From a virus: DNA of 53,429 bases. Position numbers and translations under genes: made by a program. The DNA lies in the IMG/VR virus record IMGVR_UViG_3300046524_000290, positions 1 through 53,429 of that record; one strand, given 5' to 3'. Below are positions 36,392 to 40,232 of the stretch, piece by piece. The stretch's first letter is position 1. Every line of letters begins with the position of its first letter. The notes beneath the pieces are model-generated. The model made no database searches. It saw only the letters and a program-made list of their open reading frames with translations, and had not been told where the DNA came from.

Positions 36392-36607
36392 TTAGGCGGC
36401 CATCTCGGCCCAAGGGAACGACGGGCACAGGTTTTCTTTTTTGAAAGCACCTTCGGTCAGCGCCTCCGCTCGTTTAGCAATAACCGGAGACATGCCGTGC
36501 TTCCCCCGAACCCAGCCGGAAACGGTGCTTTGATCAACCTTGAGCTTTTCGGCGGTGGCCTCCTGGGTGCCGAAGTAGTCAACGAGGCCCTTGTAGATTG
36601 CGTTCAT
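36392..36607 (-). CDS. cro: Cro/YdaS-like HTH repressor (71 aa)
   Basis: The start MNAIYKGLVDYF at 36607 follows GGAGGGG; the upstream in-frame start lies in the operator. The helix-turn-helix (TQEATAEKLKVDQSTVSGWV) is of the YdaS/Cro type. It is the first gene of the leftward early operon, divergent from cI, and is expected to bind the three operators at 36620-36683 and shut off cI. Confidence 0.88.
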   Translation of the reverse strand: MNAIYKGLVDYFGTQEATAEKLKVDQSTVSGWVRGKHGMSPVIAKRAEALTEGAFKKENLCPSFPWAEMAA

Positions 36608-36619
36608 GATGCCCCTCCA

Positions 36620-36694
36620 TACGGGAATACCCATATATTAGATTATGGGAATACCGATTTGCAAGGGTATGGGAGCGCCCGTAATACTTCGCGG
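36620..36694. promoter_or_regulatory. Immunity switch: three operators and divergent promoters sharing one -35
   Basis: Operators: TACGGGAATACCCATA (36620-36635), TATGGGAATACCGATT (36644-36659) and TATGGGAGCGCCCGTA (36668-36683), each 24 bp from the next. The palindromic hexamer TTGCAA (36659-36664) can serve as -35 in both directions. Leftward, it pairs with TAATAT (36635-36640) after 18 bp for cro. Rightward, it pairs with TAATAC (36682-36687) after 17 bp for cI, placing the cI start within a base or two of its ATG. Confidence 0.75.
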
Positions 36695-37426
36695 ATGGAA
36701 TTTAAAGACCGACTCAAAACCGCCCGCCGCCACGCCAAGCTCAATCAGACTGAGCTTGCTGAGCGTGCCGGACTCACGCAAACCTCGATCTCCGATTTGG
36801 AGAGGGGGAAATCGAAGGCTACCGCCTTCGCAGCTCAGATCGCCTCTGTATGTGGCGTATCCCCGATGTGGCTGGCTGAAGGTGTCGGTGACATGCTCAA
36901 GGGTGTGCCTAATCATCAGGCTGAACGCATCCAGCCCAGCGTGAAACTTGGCACCATCGAAACCTGGGATGACGAAACTCCACTCGATGATGACGAGGTC
37001 TACGTCCCTTTCCTCCATGAAGTGGAGCTGGCAGCCGGATCCGGAAAGTTTGCGATCGAGGAATGCGATAGCTCGCGGCTGCGCTTCTTCAAGAAAGACC
37101 TGCGCCACAATGGCGTCCAGTTCAGCAACGCGAAGTGCGTCAAGGTTGGCGGCAACAGCATGATGCCCGTGCTTCGCGACGGCGCCACCGTCGGCGTAAA
37201 CGTGGGGAAAAACTCACTGAGCGATATCGTCGACGGCGAGATGTACGCCATAAACCACAACGGGCAGCTTCGCGTGAAGCAGGTCTACCGCATACCGATC
37301 GGGATTCGCCTGCGCAGCTTCAACCGTGATGAGCATCCGGATGAGGACTACACGTTCCAACAGATCCAGGAACAGCAGATTTCGATCCTGGGGCATGTGT
37401 TCTGGTGGGCGATGTATTCGCGGTGA
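36695..37426 (+). CDS. cI: CI-type repressor with S24 self-cleavage domain (243 aa)
   Basis: The ATG at 36695 has no ribosome binding site and lies about 8 bases after the -10, so the mRNA is probably leaderless. The N-terminal HTH (NQTELAERAGLTQTSISDLE) is followed by a LexA/CI peptidase domain: Ala114-Gly115 cleavage site (ELAAGSG), Ser155 (GNSMMP) and Lys195 (LRVKQ). RecA-stimulated autocleavage should make the prophage SOS-inducible. Length is close to lambda CI (237 aa). Confidence 0.93.
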   Translation: MEFKDRLKTARRHAKLNQTELAERAGLTQTSISDLERGKSKATAFAAQIASVCGVSPMWLAEGVGDMLKGVPNHQAERIQPSVKLGTIETWDDETPLDDDEVYVPFLHEVELAAGSGKFAIEECDSSRLRFFKKDLRHNGVQFSNAKCVKVGGNSMMPVLRDGATVGVNVGKNSLSDIVDGEMYAINHNGQLRVKQVYRIPIGIRLRSFNRDEHPDEDYTFQQIQEQQISILGHVFWWAMYSR

Positions 37427-37523
37427 AGCAAAAAAGGTAATGTTTGCTTGCTGTCAAGACAAGGAAGCGTCTGCACGAAGCCAGACCTTCTAATTTGGTT
37501 TCGTGATTTTTGGGGAGATTTTC

Positions 37524-38657
37524 ATGCAGCAGGTTCCTCCACTTGCTCCACCGCCGCCTTTGAATACCCACGAGGTAGCAAGTGGGATAGCTAGGTGGGC
37601 CATATCCCGCGGCCTCATCGAGCCTTTACCTCAGGGTGTTGACGACCAATATCTGGCCAATGTACCTCCGATTCCTTTTTCAAATGACGCCGAGCAAATA
37701 CTCAGGCAAAAAGAAATCCAATCGATTTCCTATAATCATACGAACCGTATGATTTATATCTACACGAAACGGAAAGTCACTAAAGGTGACCTTCAAACGC
37801 TTCCAAGCAATCTCCAACGGCAAGGTTTCTCATACCCACAGGGTCATATGGACACCGTTGGTAAGAACCTTTCTTCCGCGCAAGGCGCAGTCTTTTCATT
37901 GCGAATGATCCCTGGCCTAGGCGCTACATACGCTTGCGGCTCTTCGATCTCACCTGGAAATGACGCCTCCGCGGGCACGCTCGGCGCTCTCGTACGACTG
38001 CCGGACGGTCTCATCTACGGGCTAACAAACAATCACGTAAGCGCACTATGTAGCCACGTTGCCCCGGAAACGCCAATTTTGGCTCCTGGTGTAGTCGATG
38101 TAGGTCCGGGCGGAATCGCACCGTTTACACTAGGCTTTCACACACGTGCACTAGAGATGAGGGTAGGATCACTCGGCAACGTTGATATCGCCAGCAACCT
38201 TGATGCTGCAGTTTTTCGGATAAACAATCCGATACAGGTCAGCTCAATGCAGGGTGAAGCATTCGACACGCCGCTGGCGGTTCTCGACCCTGTAGAAGGA
38301 ATGCGGGTTGAAAAGGTTGGCAGAACGACTCGCCACACCAAAGGTCTGATAGTAGGTAGAGAGCTGAGACCTCTGAATGTTGCGTACCAGGCACAAAGCT
38401 ACGGCTTCAACGGAGTGATACGGTTCGCGAACGTTTTTACCATCCATGGTCATAATTCGGAATTTTCGATGTCTGGCGACTCCGGATCACTTGTAGTGGC
38501 TGTTGATGACATGGGTAGACCGCTGGGTGCAGTAGGCCTAATCTTTGCTGGCGGACCAGACTCATCCGCTCCGGGAGGAGCTAAATCTTCAATGTTGCCA
38601 CTGAGGCCGATACTCGAGGCCTTAAACGCAACATTGGTTGGAGGGCACAATGTCTAA
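37524..38657 (+). CDS. Cytoplasmic trypsin-like serine protease (377 aa), rexAB-position cargo
   Basis: GGAG lies six bases before the ATG. The C-terminal two thirds form a chymotrypsin-fold protease with the likely triad His171 (TNNHVSA), Asp227 (SNLDAAV) and Ser320 (MSGDSGSLVV). Residues 1-120 are a separate N-terminal region starting with a Pro-rich stretch. There is no signal peptide, unlike secreted bacterial trypsins, so it should act inside the cell. It lies downstream of cI, probably expressed in the lysogen, and is coupled to the next gene. An anti-phage or abortive role is plausible but unproven. Confidence 0.82.
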   Translation: MQQVPPLAPPPPLNTHEVASGIARWAISRGLIEPLPQGVDDQYLANVPPIPFSNDAEQILRQKEIQSISYNHTNRMIYIYTKRKVTKGDLQTLPSNLQRQGFSYPQGHMDTVGKNLSSAQGAVFSLRMIPGLGATYACGSSISPGNDASAGTLGALVRLPDGLIYGLTNNHVSALCSHVAPETPILAPGVVDVGPGGIAPFTLGFHTRALEMRVGSLGNVDIASNLDAAVFRINNPIQVSSMQGEAFDTPLAVLDPVEGMRVEKVGRTTRHTKGLIVGRELRPLNVAYQAQSYGFNGVIRFANVFTIHGHNSEFSMSGDSGSLVVAVDDMGRPLGAVGLIFAGGPDSSAPGGAKSSMLPLRPILEALNATLVGGHNV

Positions 38658-38880
38658 CGATAGGAACGATCCACTTGTTGTCGCGGAGCGCTTGGCGGCA
38701 GCCATTCAGCCGCCGACGGATCGTGCTCTGTCCATTTCCACTTATTTTCGACCAGGTAAACCTCTAGCGCTCAAGGTCTTCATTTCACCAGATTTTAAGT
38801 ACCTTGAAGCTCGAATTCCTGATCATATGGGCGGATTCGAAATTTTTCACGAAGTGGCGGCGAGCGTCAGAGCTGGCTGA
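38650..38880 (+). CDS. Small partner protein coupled to the protease (76 aa)
   Basis: Its ATG lies inside the protease gene (8-bp overlap) after GGAGG, so translation is coupled. The N-terminal helix (DPLVVAERLAAAIQPP) is followed by a small beta domain (LALKVFISPDFKYLEARIPD). It is closed by its own terminator. The tight pairing suggests a regulator, inhibitor or substrate of the protease. Confidence 0.72.
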   Translation: MSNDRNDPLVVAERLAAAIQPPTDRALSISTYFRPGKPLALKVFISPDFKYLEARIPDHMGGFEIFHEVAASVRAG

Positions 38881-38886
38881 AAAGAA

Positions 38887-38913
38887 GAGCCCGGCCCAGC
38901 GCCGGGCTTTTTC
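38887..38913 (+). terminator. Terminator of the cI-protease operon
   Basis: GCCCGGC-CCAGC-GCCGGGC is followed by TTTTTC, ending the immunity-region transcript. Confidence 0.82.
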
Positions 38914-38992: not shown

Positions 38993-39472
38993 ATGAGCAA
39001 GAGAACTATCTTCTTTGCATGGGCTCTGCTTTTTTCGAGCGTTTCAGGCGCAGGGGCATTCAAAGATGAAGTTGATCGGTTCACTGATAACCGATCTGTT
39101 TCTTGGATGGCTATGCCGTCTCAACCCAAAGATTTTTCTTTTTCGGTCTTTGCCTTTTATCCAAAGGGCTACACGACTCCCTACTTGTATCGCATCCAGC
39201 TTTTGACACGTTCCGATCAGTGGCAATACCTAGATTGCCACCACACAGACTGGTTGGTCGACGGTAAGCGTGATCCATATCTTGAGATGAAATACGAAAA
39301 CTCTATGGCGGGATCTTCGACGCTGGAGAGCTTTAGCAAACGAGTAGATCGCGCGAACATTGAGCGCCTGGCCTCATCCAAGCTCATTGAATTCAAGGTC
39401 TGTGGCACAGAGGGACGGGTTTCCGAGCAAGACATGGCGGGACTGAGAAGGGTCGTAGACGCCACCAAATAG
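38993..39472 (+). CDS. Secreted/periplasmic hypothetical protein (159 aa)
   Basis: GGAGG precedes the ATG. A classical signal peptide (TIFFAWALLFSSVSGAGA, cleavage near residue 22) leads a beta-rich mature domain with two cysteines (YLDCHH and FKVCG). It is a separate unit between two terminators and looks like a lysogenic-conversion gene acting in the periplasm. Family not recognised. Confidence 0.7.
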   Translation: MSKRTIFFAWALLFSSVSGAGAFKDEVDRFTDNRSVSWMAMPSQPKDFSFSVFAFYPKGYTTPYLYRIQLLTRSDQWQYLDCHHTDWLVDGKRDPYLEMKYENSMAGSSTLESFSKRVDRANIERLASSKLIEFKVCGTEGRVSEQDMAGLRRVVDATK

Positions 39473-39583: not shown

Positions 39584-39711
39584 TCACCCATCGCAGCGAC
39601 ACACAGCCACTGCGAAGGGCCTCAAGAGACCCGCCGCTCTTTAACAGTCAGGAATCTTCGCGGATCGATCCCCGGAAACGGGCATAGCGCGAAACACAAA
39701 CTTCGATCCCC

Positions 39712-39804
39712 ATGCAGGCTCTGGAACCTGCCGGACTCCCCATATGGGAGGACGCCAAACCATGCAAGCCAGCCGGCGAAGAACACCGAACACGAAATGT
39801 GTGA
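39712..39804 (+). CDS. Very short ORF in the leader (30 aa), perhaps frameshifted
   Basis: The ATG opens a 30-residue frame beginning MQALEPAGLPIW and ending EEHRTRNV before TGA. Directly downstream, another frame continues with TPARWGNRGAAHG, which resembles the usual continuation of such Pseudomonas phage leader peptides (recalled, not searched). A two-base insertion may have split it. Confidence 0.3.
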   Translation: MQALEPAGLPIWEDAKPCKPAGEEHRTRNV

Positions 39805-39870
39805 CGCCGGCCAGGTGGGGAAACCGCGGCGCCGCGCATGGGGCGGATAGCAACACGGAATTTTTCACTG

Positions 39871-39892
39871 ATGCACCTGGCGACGGGTGCAT
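39871..39892 (+). other. Leader hairpin with TGGCGAC loop upstream of the 84-aa gene
   Basis: ATGCACC-TGGCGACG-GGTGCAT forms a 7-bp stem. It is followed by GGGAAAA and an ACCGGAG element before the ATG at 39917, an arrangement repeated at 40184-40205. Confidence 0.5.
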
Positions 39893-39916
39893 TGGGAAAA
39901 CAACCGGAGAGACGAC

Positions 39917-40171: not shown

Positions 40172-40183
40172 CGATTTCACTGG

Positions 40184-40205
40184 CTGGCCTTGGCGACAGG
40201 GCCAG
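40184..40205 (+). other. Leader hairpin with TGGCGACA loop upstream of the 65-aa gene
   Basis: CTGGCC-TTGGCGACAG-GGCCAG is followed by ACGGGAAA and GCCGGAGGA before the ATG at 40233. Loop and following bases match the hairpin at 39871-39892 although the stems differ, implying a conserved RNA element. Confidence 0.5.
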
Positions 40206-40232
40206 ACGGGAAATCAGCCGGAGGAACACAGC

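Follow-up and report, generated by a model that had tools for sequence, protein, structure and literature searches.

Introduction

RexB of phage lambda is described as an ion channel. Lambda uses the position downstream of its repressor for rexAB, and BstA, a demonstrated abortive-infection protein, is likewise typically encoded downstream of the prophage repressor (PMC8585504). In recently described bacterial defense systems, the protease carries a fused sensor and switches on an MBL nuclease (PMC12799240). In plants, the protease NAL1 degrades TOPLESS-type corepressors (PMC12915138).

Here, we describe a two-gene cassette, composed of a NAL1-like protease gene and a small partner gene, in the repressor-downstream position of an IMG/VR virus record whose structural genes are like those of Pseudomonas siphophages. 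The stretch analyzed (53,429 bases) is referred to as the window. As in lambda RexAB, two genes lie downstream of cI, in the position that lambda expresses in lysogens; unlike RexAB, with which there is no homology, one of the partners is a protease. With the BstA cassette (Salmonella BTP1 and others), the pair shares the slot directly after the prophage repressor, with boundaries as in Pseudomonas phage PseuP_222. It differs in bearing no sequence relation to BstA and in consisting of a protease and a small partner, and no aba self-immunity element was identified.

The trypsin-MBL nuclease modules of Hachiman, AVAST, Lamassu, and DRT resemble the pair in that a bacterial trypsin-fold protease is joined by a co-evolving partner gene (PMC12799240). 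Unlike in these modules, the protease of the window is free-standing, and its partner is a 76-aa protein resembling the protease’s N-domain. An MBL-fold nuclease gene is absent beside the pair; the neighbors of the protease gene are cI, the 76-aa gene, and a gene for a signal-peptide protein. Free-standing pro-domain-like inhibitors are known from the subtilisin propeptide family I9, e.g., POIA1, and the pro-region of alpha-lytic protease is a cis analogue. The small protein of the window is comparable to I9-type inhibitors in its small alpha/beta form and in its probable kinship with a cis domain before the catalytic domain, but the protease or inhibitor family is different, and inhibition is in this case predicted.

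Organization of the Locus

An earlier note, prepared by reading this DNA, had proposed an intracellular chymotrypsin-fold protease and a coupled small partner downstream of cI as a candidate anti-phage or abortive-infection system. The features on which the present analysis draws are listed below.

36392..36634, minus strand: Cro/YdaS-type gene, divergent from cI (Pfam YdaS_toxin, E 1.6e-7; P22_Cro, E 3e-6; PHROG 35, transcriptional repressor)
36695..37426, plus strand: cI-type repressor with HTH_3 and Peptidase_S24, 243 aa (Pfam S24, E 1.1e-17; HTH_3, E 2.5e-11; PHROG 4, transcriptional repressor, E 5.5e-53)
37464..37490, plus strand: leader hairpin GAAG-bulge-GTCTG / CAGAC-CTTC in the cI-protease interval, kept in one subclade
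37524..38657, plus strand: NAL1-like trypsin-fold protease gene, ATG start, 377 aa (Pfam Nal1_C, PHROG 25502, NAL1 fold match)
38641..38649, plus strand: Shine-Dalgarno GGAGG of the small gene, within the last protease codons, TTGGAGGGCACAATG
38650..38880, plus strand: small partner gene, ATG start, 76 aa, translationally coupled, conserved 3' of the protease gene in 32/32 complete relatives
38882..38912, plus strand: terminator bounding the cassette, stem and T-run

Both open reading frames are as the earlier note had drawn them, including the 8-nt overlap of the protease stop with the small-gene start (ATGTCTAA). The assigned position downstream of cI is likewise correct, as the gene in front encodes an HTH and S24 repressor on the same strand, 97 nt before the protease gene. 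The terminator that had been read after the pair corresponds to a G+C-rich hairpin with a T-run at 38888-38908, 3' of the small gene.

A NAL1-Like Protease with an Intact Triad

The 377-aa protein matches Pfam Nal1_C with 33.6 bits (E 3.1e-8), above the curated cut-off of 26.1, and PHROG 25502, a family whose function is not annotated, over nearly its full length (E 3e-66). In PDB sequence searches, chains of rice NARROW LEAF 1 (NAL1) were the only matches, and the profile search of the PDB likewise returned NAL1 alone, with E 1.4e-14. When an AF2 model of the protease (mean pLDDT 71) was submitted to Foldseek, NAL1 ranked first (E 3e-11), followed by alpha-lytic-type proteases. With Nal1_C above its cut-off and NAL1 as the nearest solved structure, the chymotrypsin fold claimed from inspection is upheld, and the protein belongs, by sequence and predicted fold, to the NAL1-like trypsin-fold family. 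The numbering of the proposed triad was also right: none of the 24 aligned protease relatives deviates at H171, D227, or S320 (in MSGDSGS).

In addition to the Nal1_C match and the best PDB matches by sequence and fold, the protease shares with plant NAL1 the order of His, Asp, and Ser and an N-terminal region (here an N-domain at about residues 13-112) that precedes the catalytic domain (about 123-377). It differs in being phage-borne, in its low identity to plant NAL1 (about 20%), and in having a small gene coupled to it; the plant substrates are absent. Neither a signal peptide nor a membrane segment was seen by eye in the two proteins, and 19-residue hydropathy peaks at 1.41 in the protease and 0.66 in the small protein, in keeping with the earlier reading that a signal peptide is lacking. 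Because no hydrophobic segment suggests export, the protease is, as judged from its sequence, a cytoplasmic trypsin-fold enzyme with an intact triad and predicted catalytic activity.

Obligate Pairing with the Small Gene

Scans of viral contigs recovered protease relatives whose identity ranges between 82% and about 30%, and genome searches recovered prophage copies in Pseudomonas fuscovaginae and one more Pseudomonas genome. The earlier note would have given up its reading if the small gene were not conserved with the protease; a gene of 67-85 aa was found directly 3' of the protease gene in 32/32 complete phage or prophage loci, i.e., those with a complete protease end, with the window, L003, and L008 counted in, as well as L067. 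Across relatives, the small gene usually overlaps the end of the protease gene by 8 or 4 nt, and GGAGG inside the last protease codons is kept at every Pseudomonas-clade junction.

Searches that started from the small gene led to the same loci. All 11 hits in viral contigs lie on contigs already known to carry the protease, and the two Pseudomonas genomes (of 399) that have the small gene are the two that have the protease; no copy of the small gene without a protease was found in the viral contigs or the 399 genomes. Between the relatives compared, codon positions 1, 2, and 3 of the small gene differ at 35, 26, and 66%, respectively, and its product is therefore under protein-level purifying selection. 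Protease and small-protein identities correlate at 0.79 across 12 Pseudomonas-clade loci. Comparative sequence evidence thus confirms that the small gene is real and conserved beyond chance, and that the pairing is obligate in phage-type loci.

In the chromosomal relatives L010-L013, the small gene is absent. In two of these, L010 and L013 from Gammaproteobacteria (about 35% identity in the catalytic part), the protease gene overlaps a gene for a SixA-like histidine phosphatase. Given these four relatives without the small gene, two of them beside a SixA-like gene, the wider NAL1-like family need not be defensive.

An Exchangeable Slot Downstream of cI

The nearest named phage, Pseudomonas phage PseuP_222, has a cI 82% identical to that of the window. 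The DNA of the two is similar (83%) up to a point 12 nt short of the cI stop, and similarity returns at the terminator, where 31 bp are 93.5% identical and lie just after bstA in PseuP_222. The interval from the end of cI to the terminator is filled by the protease pair in the window and by a lipoprotein gene plus BstA in PseuP_222. Copies of BstA in this slot were located as follows.

PseuP_222 (OP626800.1), L050:6949-7863, minus strand: BstA in the cI-downstream slot (PADLOC E 6e-120)
L080:3766-4665, plus strand: BstA in the cI-downstream slot (PADLOC E 2e-118)

In these Pseudomonas phages, BstA is annotated just as a hypothetical protein. In vB_PaeS-D14H, BstA follows cI, and in MD8 the slot holds annotated HigB/HigA-like genes. 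Since relatives have BstA or annotated HigBA-like genes there, the slot can be regarded as an exchangeable defense or accessory slot. The presence of BstA in the nearest named relative, together with annotated HigBA in another, also makes the case for exclusion stronger than it was when the earlier note was written.

That note had further suggested a survey of prophage cI-downstream neighborhoods for the same pair. In every Pseudomonas-clade locus the pair directly follows the repressor, with the same orientation, and in several more distant loci it also lies close to an S24 repressor; S24 was present in 10/10 upstream repressors tested. Some relatives have no repressor neighbor, as L053 has an integrase and no S24 gene was seen adjoining the protease in L063 and L068. 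In the 12 Pseudomonas-clade loci, protease identity spans 59-96% and the median repressor identity is 28%, with a protease-repressor correlation of 0.20. By these comparisons, the pair is an exchangeable cassette that travels with unrelated repressors.

Two other functions can be weighed against this arrangement. If the protease cleaved the neighboring S24 protein or another phage regulator, with the small protein as cofactor, the pair would tune prophage induction, and its same-strand proximity to S24 repressors in the Pseudomonas clade and in several distant loci would be accounted for. However, the pair is conserved even where repressor identity drops to 21%, close relatives with near-identical cI have BstA in its place, and a repressor is not nearby in some loci, which makes such a regulatory role unlikely. 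The pair could instead serve lysogenic conversion, with the protease trimming a host regulator and the small protein acting as substrate adaptor. Plant NAL1 relatives degrade transcriptional corepressors (PMC12915138), and chromosomal relatives of the protease occur outside prophages; nevertheless, the slot cargo of relatives consists of defense or toxin-antitoxin genes, and the sequence suggests no host target, so that we consider lysogenic conversion unlikely.

The Small Protein as a Probable Relative of the Protease N-Domain

An AF2 model of the small protein (mean pLDDT 87.5) has the order helix-strand-strand-helix-strand. The same order of elements is found in the model of the protease N-domain (helix 54-63, strands 65-71 and 76-81, helix 87-92), the last part of which is of low confidence. 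With profiles from 24 diverse pairs, hhalign matched the small protein to protease residues of about 41-111 with a score of 27.9 (E 9.4e-5), a value reached by 0/200 column-shuffled controls (maximum 17.6). When protease segments were slid along the small-protein profile, 41-111 and 61-131 scored 26-27, 81-151, which overlaps the N-domain, scored 17, and the others scored about 15 or less. The comparison was negative with close relatives only and became positive first with the 24 diverse pairs; the match is seen neither with Pseudomonas-clade small proteins alone nor with the window pair. Its signal stems mostly from divergent clades, and small-protein clades C and D are tied to the Pseudomonas clade mainly through position. 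The small protein is probably a free-standing relative of the protease’s own N-terminal domain, and since the profile match is specific to that domain, a function as a pro-domain-like regulator is predicted as probable.

No family match was obtained for the small protein in Pfam, PHROGs, PADLOC, or NCBIfam, and nothing significant in the PDB, by profile or by Foldseek. The comparison with profile databases that the earlier note had proposed therefore succeeded for the protease, through Nal1_C, and failed for the small protein, which gave no hit to a trypsin co-occurring (Trypco) model. Both the NAL1-like nature of the protease and the N-domain resemblance of its partner had been missed in that first reading.

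A small protein resembling the protease’s own N-domain would also suit a protease-inhibitor addiction module, in which a toxic protease is set free once a labile small inhibitor is lost, and which would serve prophage maintenance instead of phage exclusion. Like type II toxin-antitoxin systems, the cassette consists of two coupled genes that always occur together; the genes overlap with the small partner second, and an annotated HigBA-like pair occupies the same slot in MD8. On the other hand, the small protein has neither a family match nor a DNA-binding domain (predicted a-b-b-a-b), although such an antitoxin domain is not universal among toxin-antitoxin systems. A 377-aa protease is larger than usual for a type II system, and maintenance of the resident prophage is already served by its integrase and repressor control. 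We therefore regard an addiction module as doubtful.

Leader Structures and Expression

The leader hairpin at 37464-37490 is paired in 54/54 cells in six relatives, compared with at most 61% for slid versions. A covarying RNA was rejected, as the hairpin is conserved, yet compensatory change is no greater than in shuffles; for that reason, it counts as weak evidence. A search of Rfam gave no match. Also within the cI-protease interval, 37474-37505 can form a terminator-like hairpin, which is apparently window-specific; the two hairpins overlap and are mutually exclusive. As the terminator-like hairpin could separate the pair from cI, it is uncertain whether the cI promoter drives the pair.

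In a second subclade, that of L003, L044-L046, and L008, folding predictions place nearly all of the protease Shine-Dalgarno in paired positions (P unpaired 0.00-0.02); in the window, the predicted value is 0.47. Speculatively, the modeled leaders of this subclade would restrain translation, which would fit a dangerous enzyme. A universal leader switch was rejected, since the Shine-Dalgarno is sequestered in part of the relatives only.

A Candidate Exclusion Cassette

We favor, with a probability of about 0.5, a lysogeny-linked exclusion or abortive-infection cassette in the cI-downstream slot, in which the protease would be held back or matured by its small partner. Computation showed the family, the intact triad, the coupling of the two genes, their obligate pairing, the N-domain profile resemblance, and the cargo exchange with known defense genes. 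From these we infer catalysis, expression, inhibition, trigger, target, and protection, in the following manner. In the lysogen, the cassette would be transcribed with, or just after, cI. The small protein would dock at the site of the cis N-domain as a trans-acting pro-domain, i.e., as an inhibitor and/or a folding or assembly partner, and would thereby keep the protease latent or mature it. Infection by another phage would disturb the complex and free the protease, which would then cleave a host or phage protein, with abortion of the infection or exclusion of the incoming phage as the outcome.

More tentatively, the cassette may represent a new prophage immunity class in which a latent NAL1-like protease, checked by a free-standing copy of its N-domain, is unleashed by a second phage; the pair would be mobile between unrelated repressors and accompanied in one subclade by a hairpin that sequesters the Shine-Dalgarno. 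If true, temperate phages would deploy, for immunity, a trypsin-fold protease whose N-domain partner acts in trans, and this effector would occupy a slot already known for RexAB and BstA. A free-standing protease would also be added to the bacterial antiviral effectors, among which trypsin-like proteases were recently reported to activate partner nucleases (PMC12799240). The protease family has otherwise been studied mainly in crop plants, and the pair provides bacterial and phage model proteins for the regulation of NAL1-type enzymes.

Distribution and Flanking Sequences

Three protease queries against 50,697 named phage records found no relative at E 1e-5 and, up to E 10, unrelated short matches only. 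Among plasmids, query P0001 had no match and the L053 protease gave three distant ones. PADLOC assigned no defense family at E <= 1 to the protease or the small protein. In the open-access literature, no paper was found on phage NAL1-like proteases or on a protease-small pair beside cI, and none that links NAL1 with phages, four co-mentions being unrelated; the earlier note’s statement that it knew of no described prophage system with this exact pair agrees with this outcome. The protease extends a known family by one member, and its cassette with the small gene is a novel version of the prophage accessory systems linked to cI.

The next gene past the terminator, at 38993-39472 on the plus strand, has a product of 159 aa that apparently carries a Sec signal peptide. 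It matches PHROG 36853 (E 8e-47), whose function is not annotated, and its product is possibly a separate periplasmic accessory protein. Farther downstream, 39710-39906 and 40173-40220 of the window both match a single stretch of L001 (6974-7162) at 81-98% identity, in surroundings that are otherwise dissimilar. Judging from this similarity, these segments may be a small repeated element common to the prophages of the window and L001.
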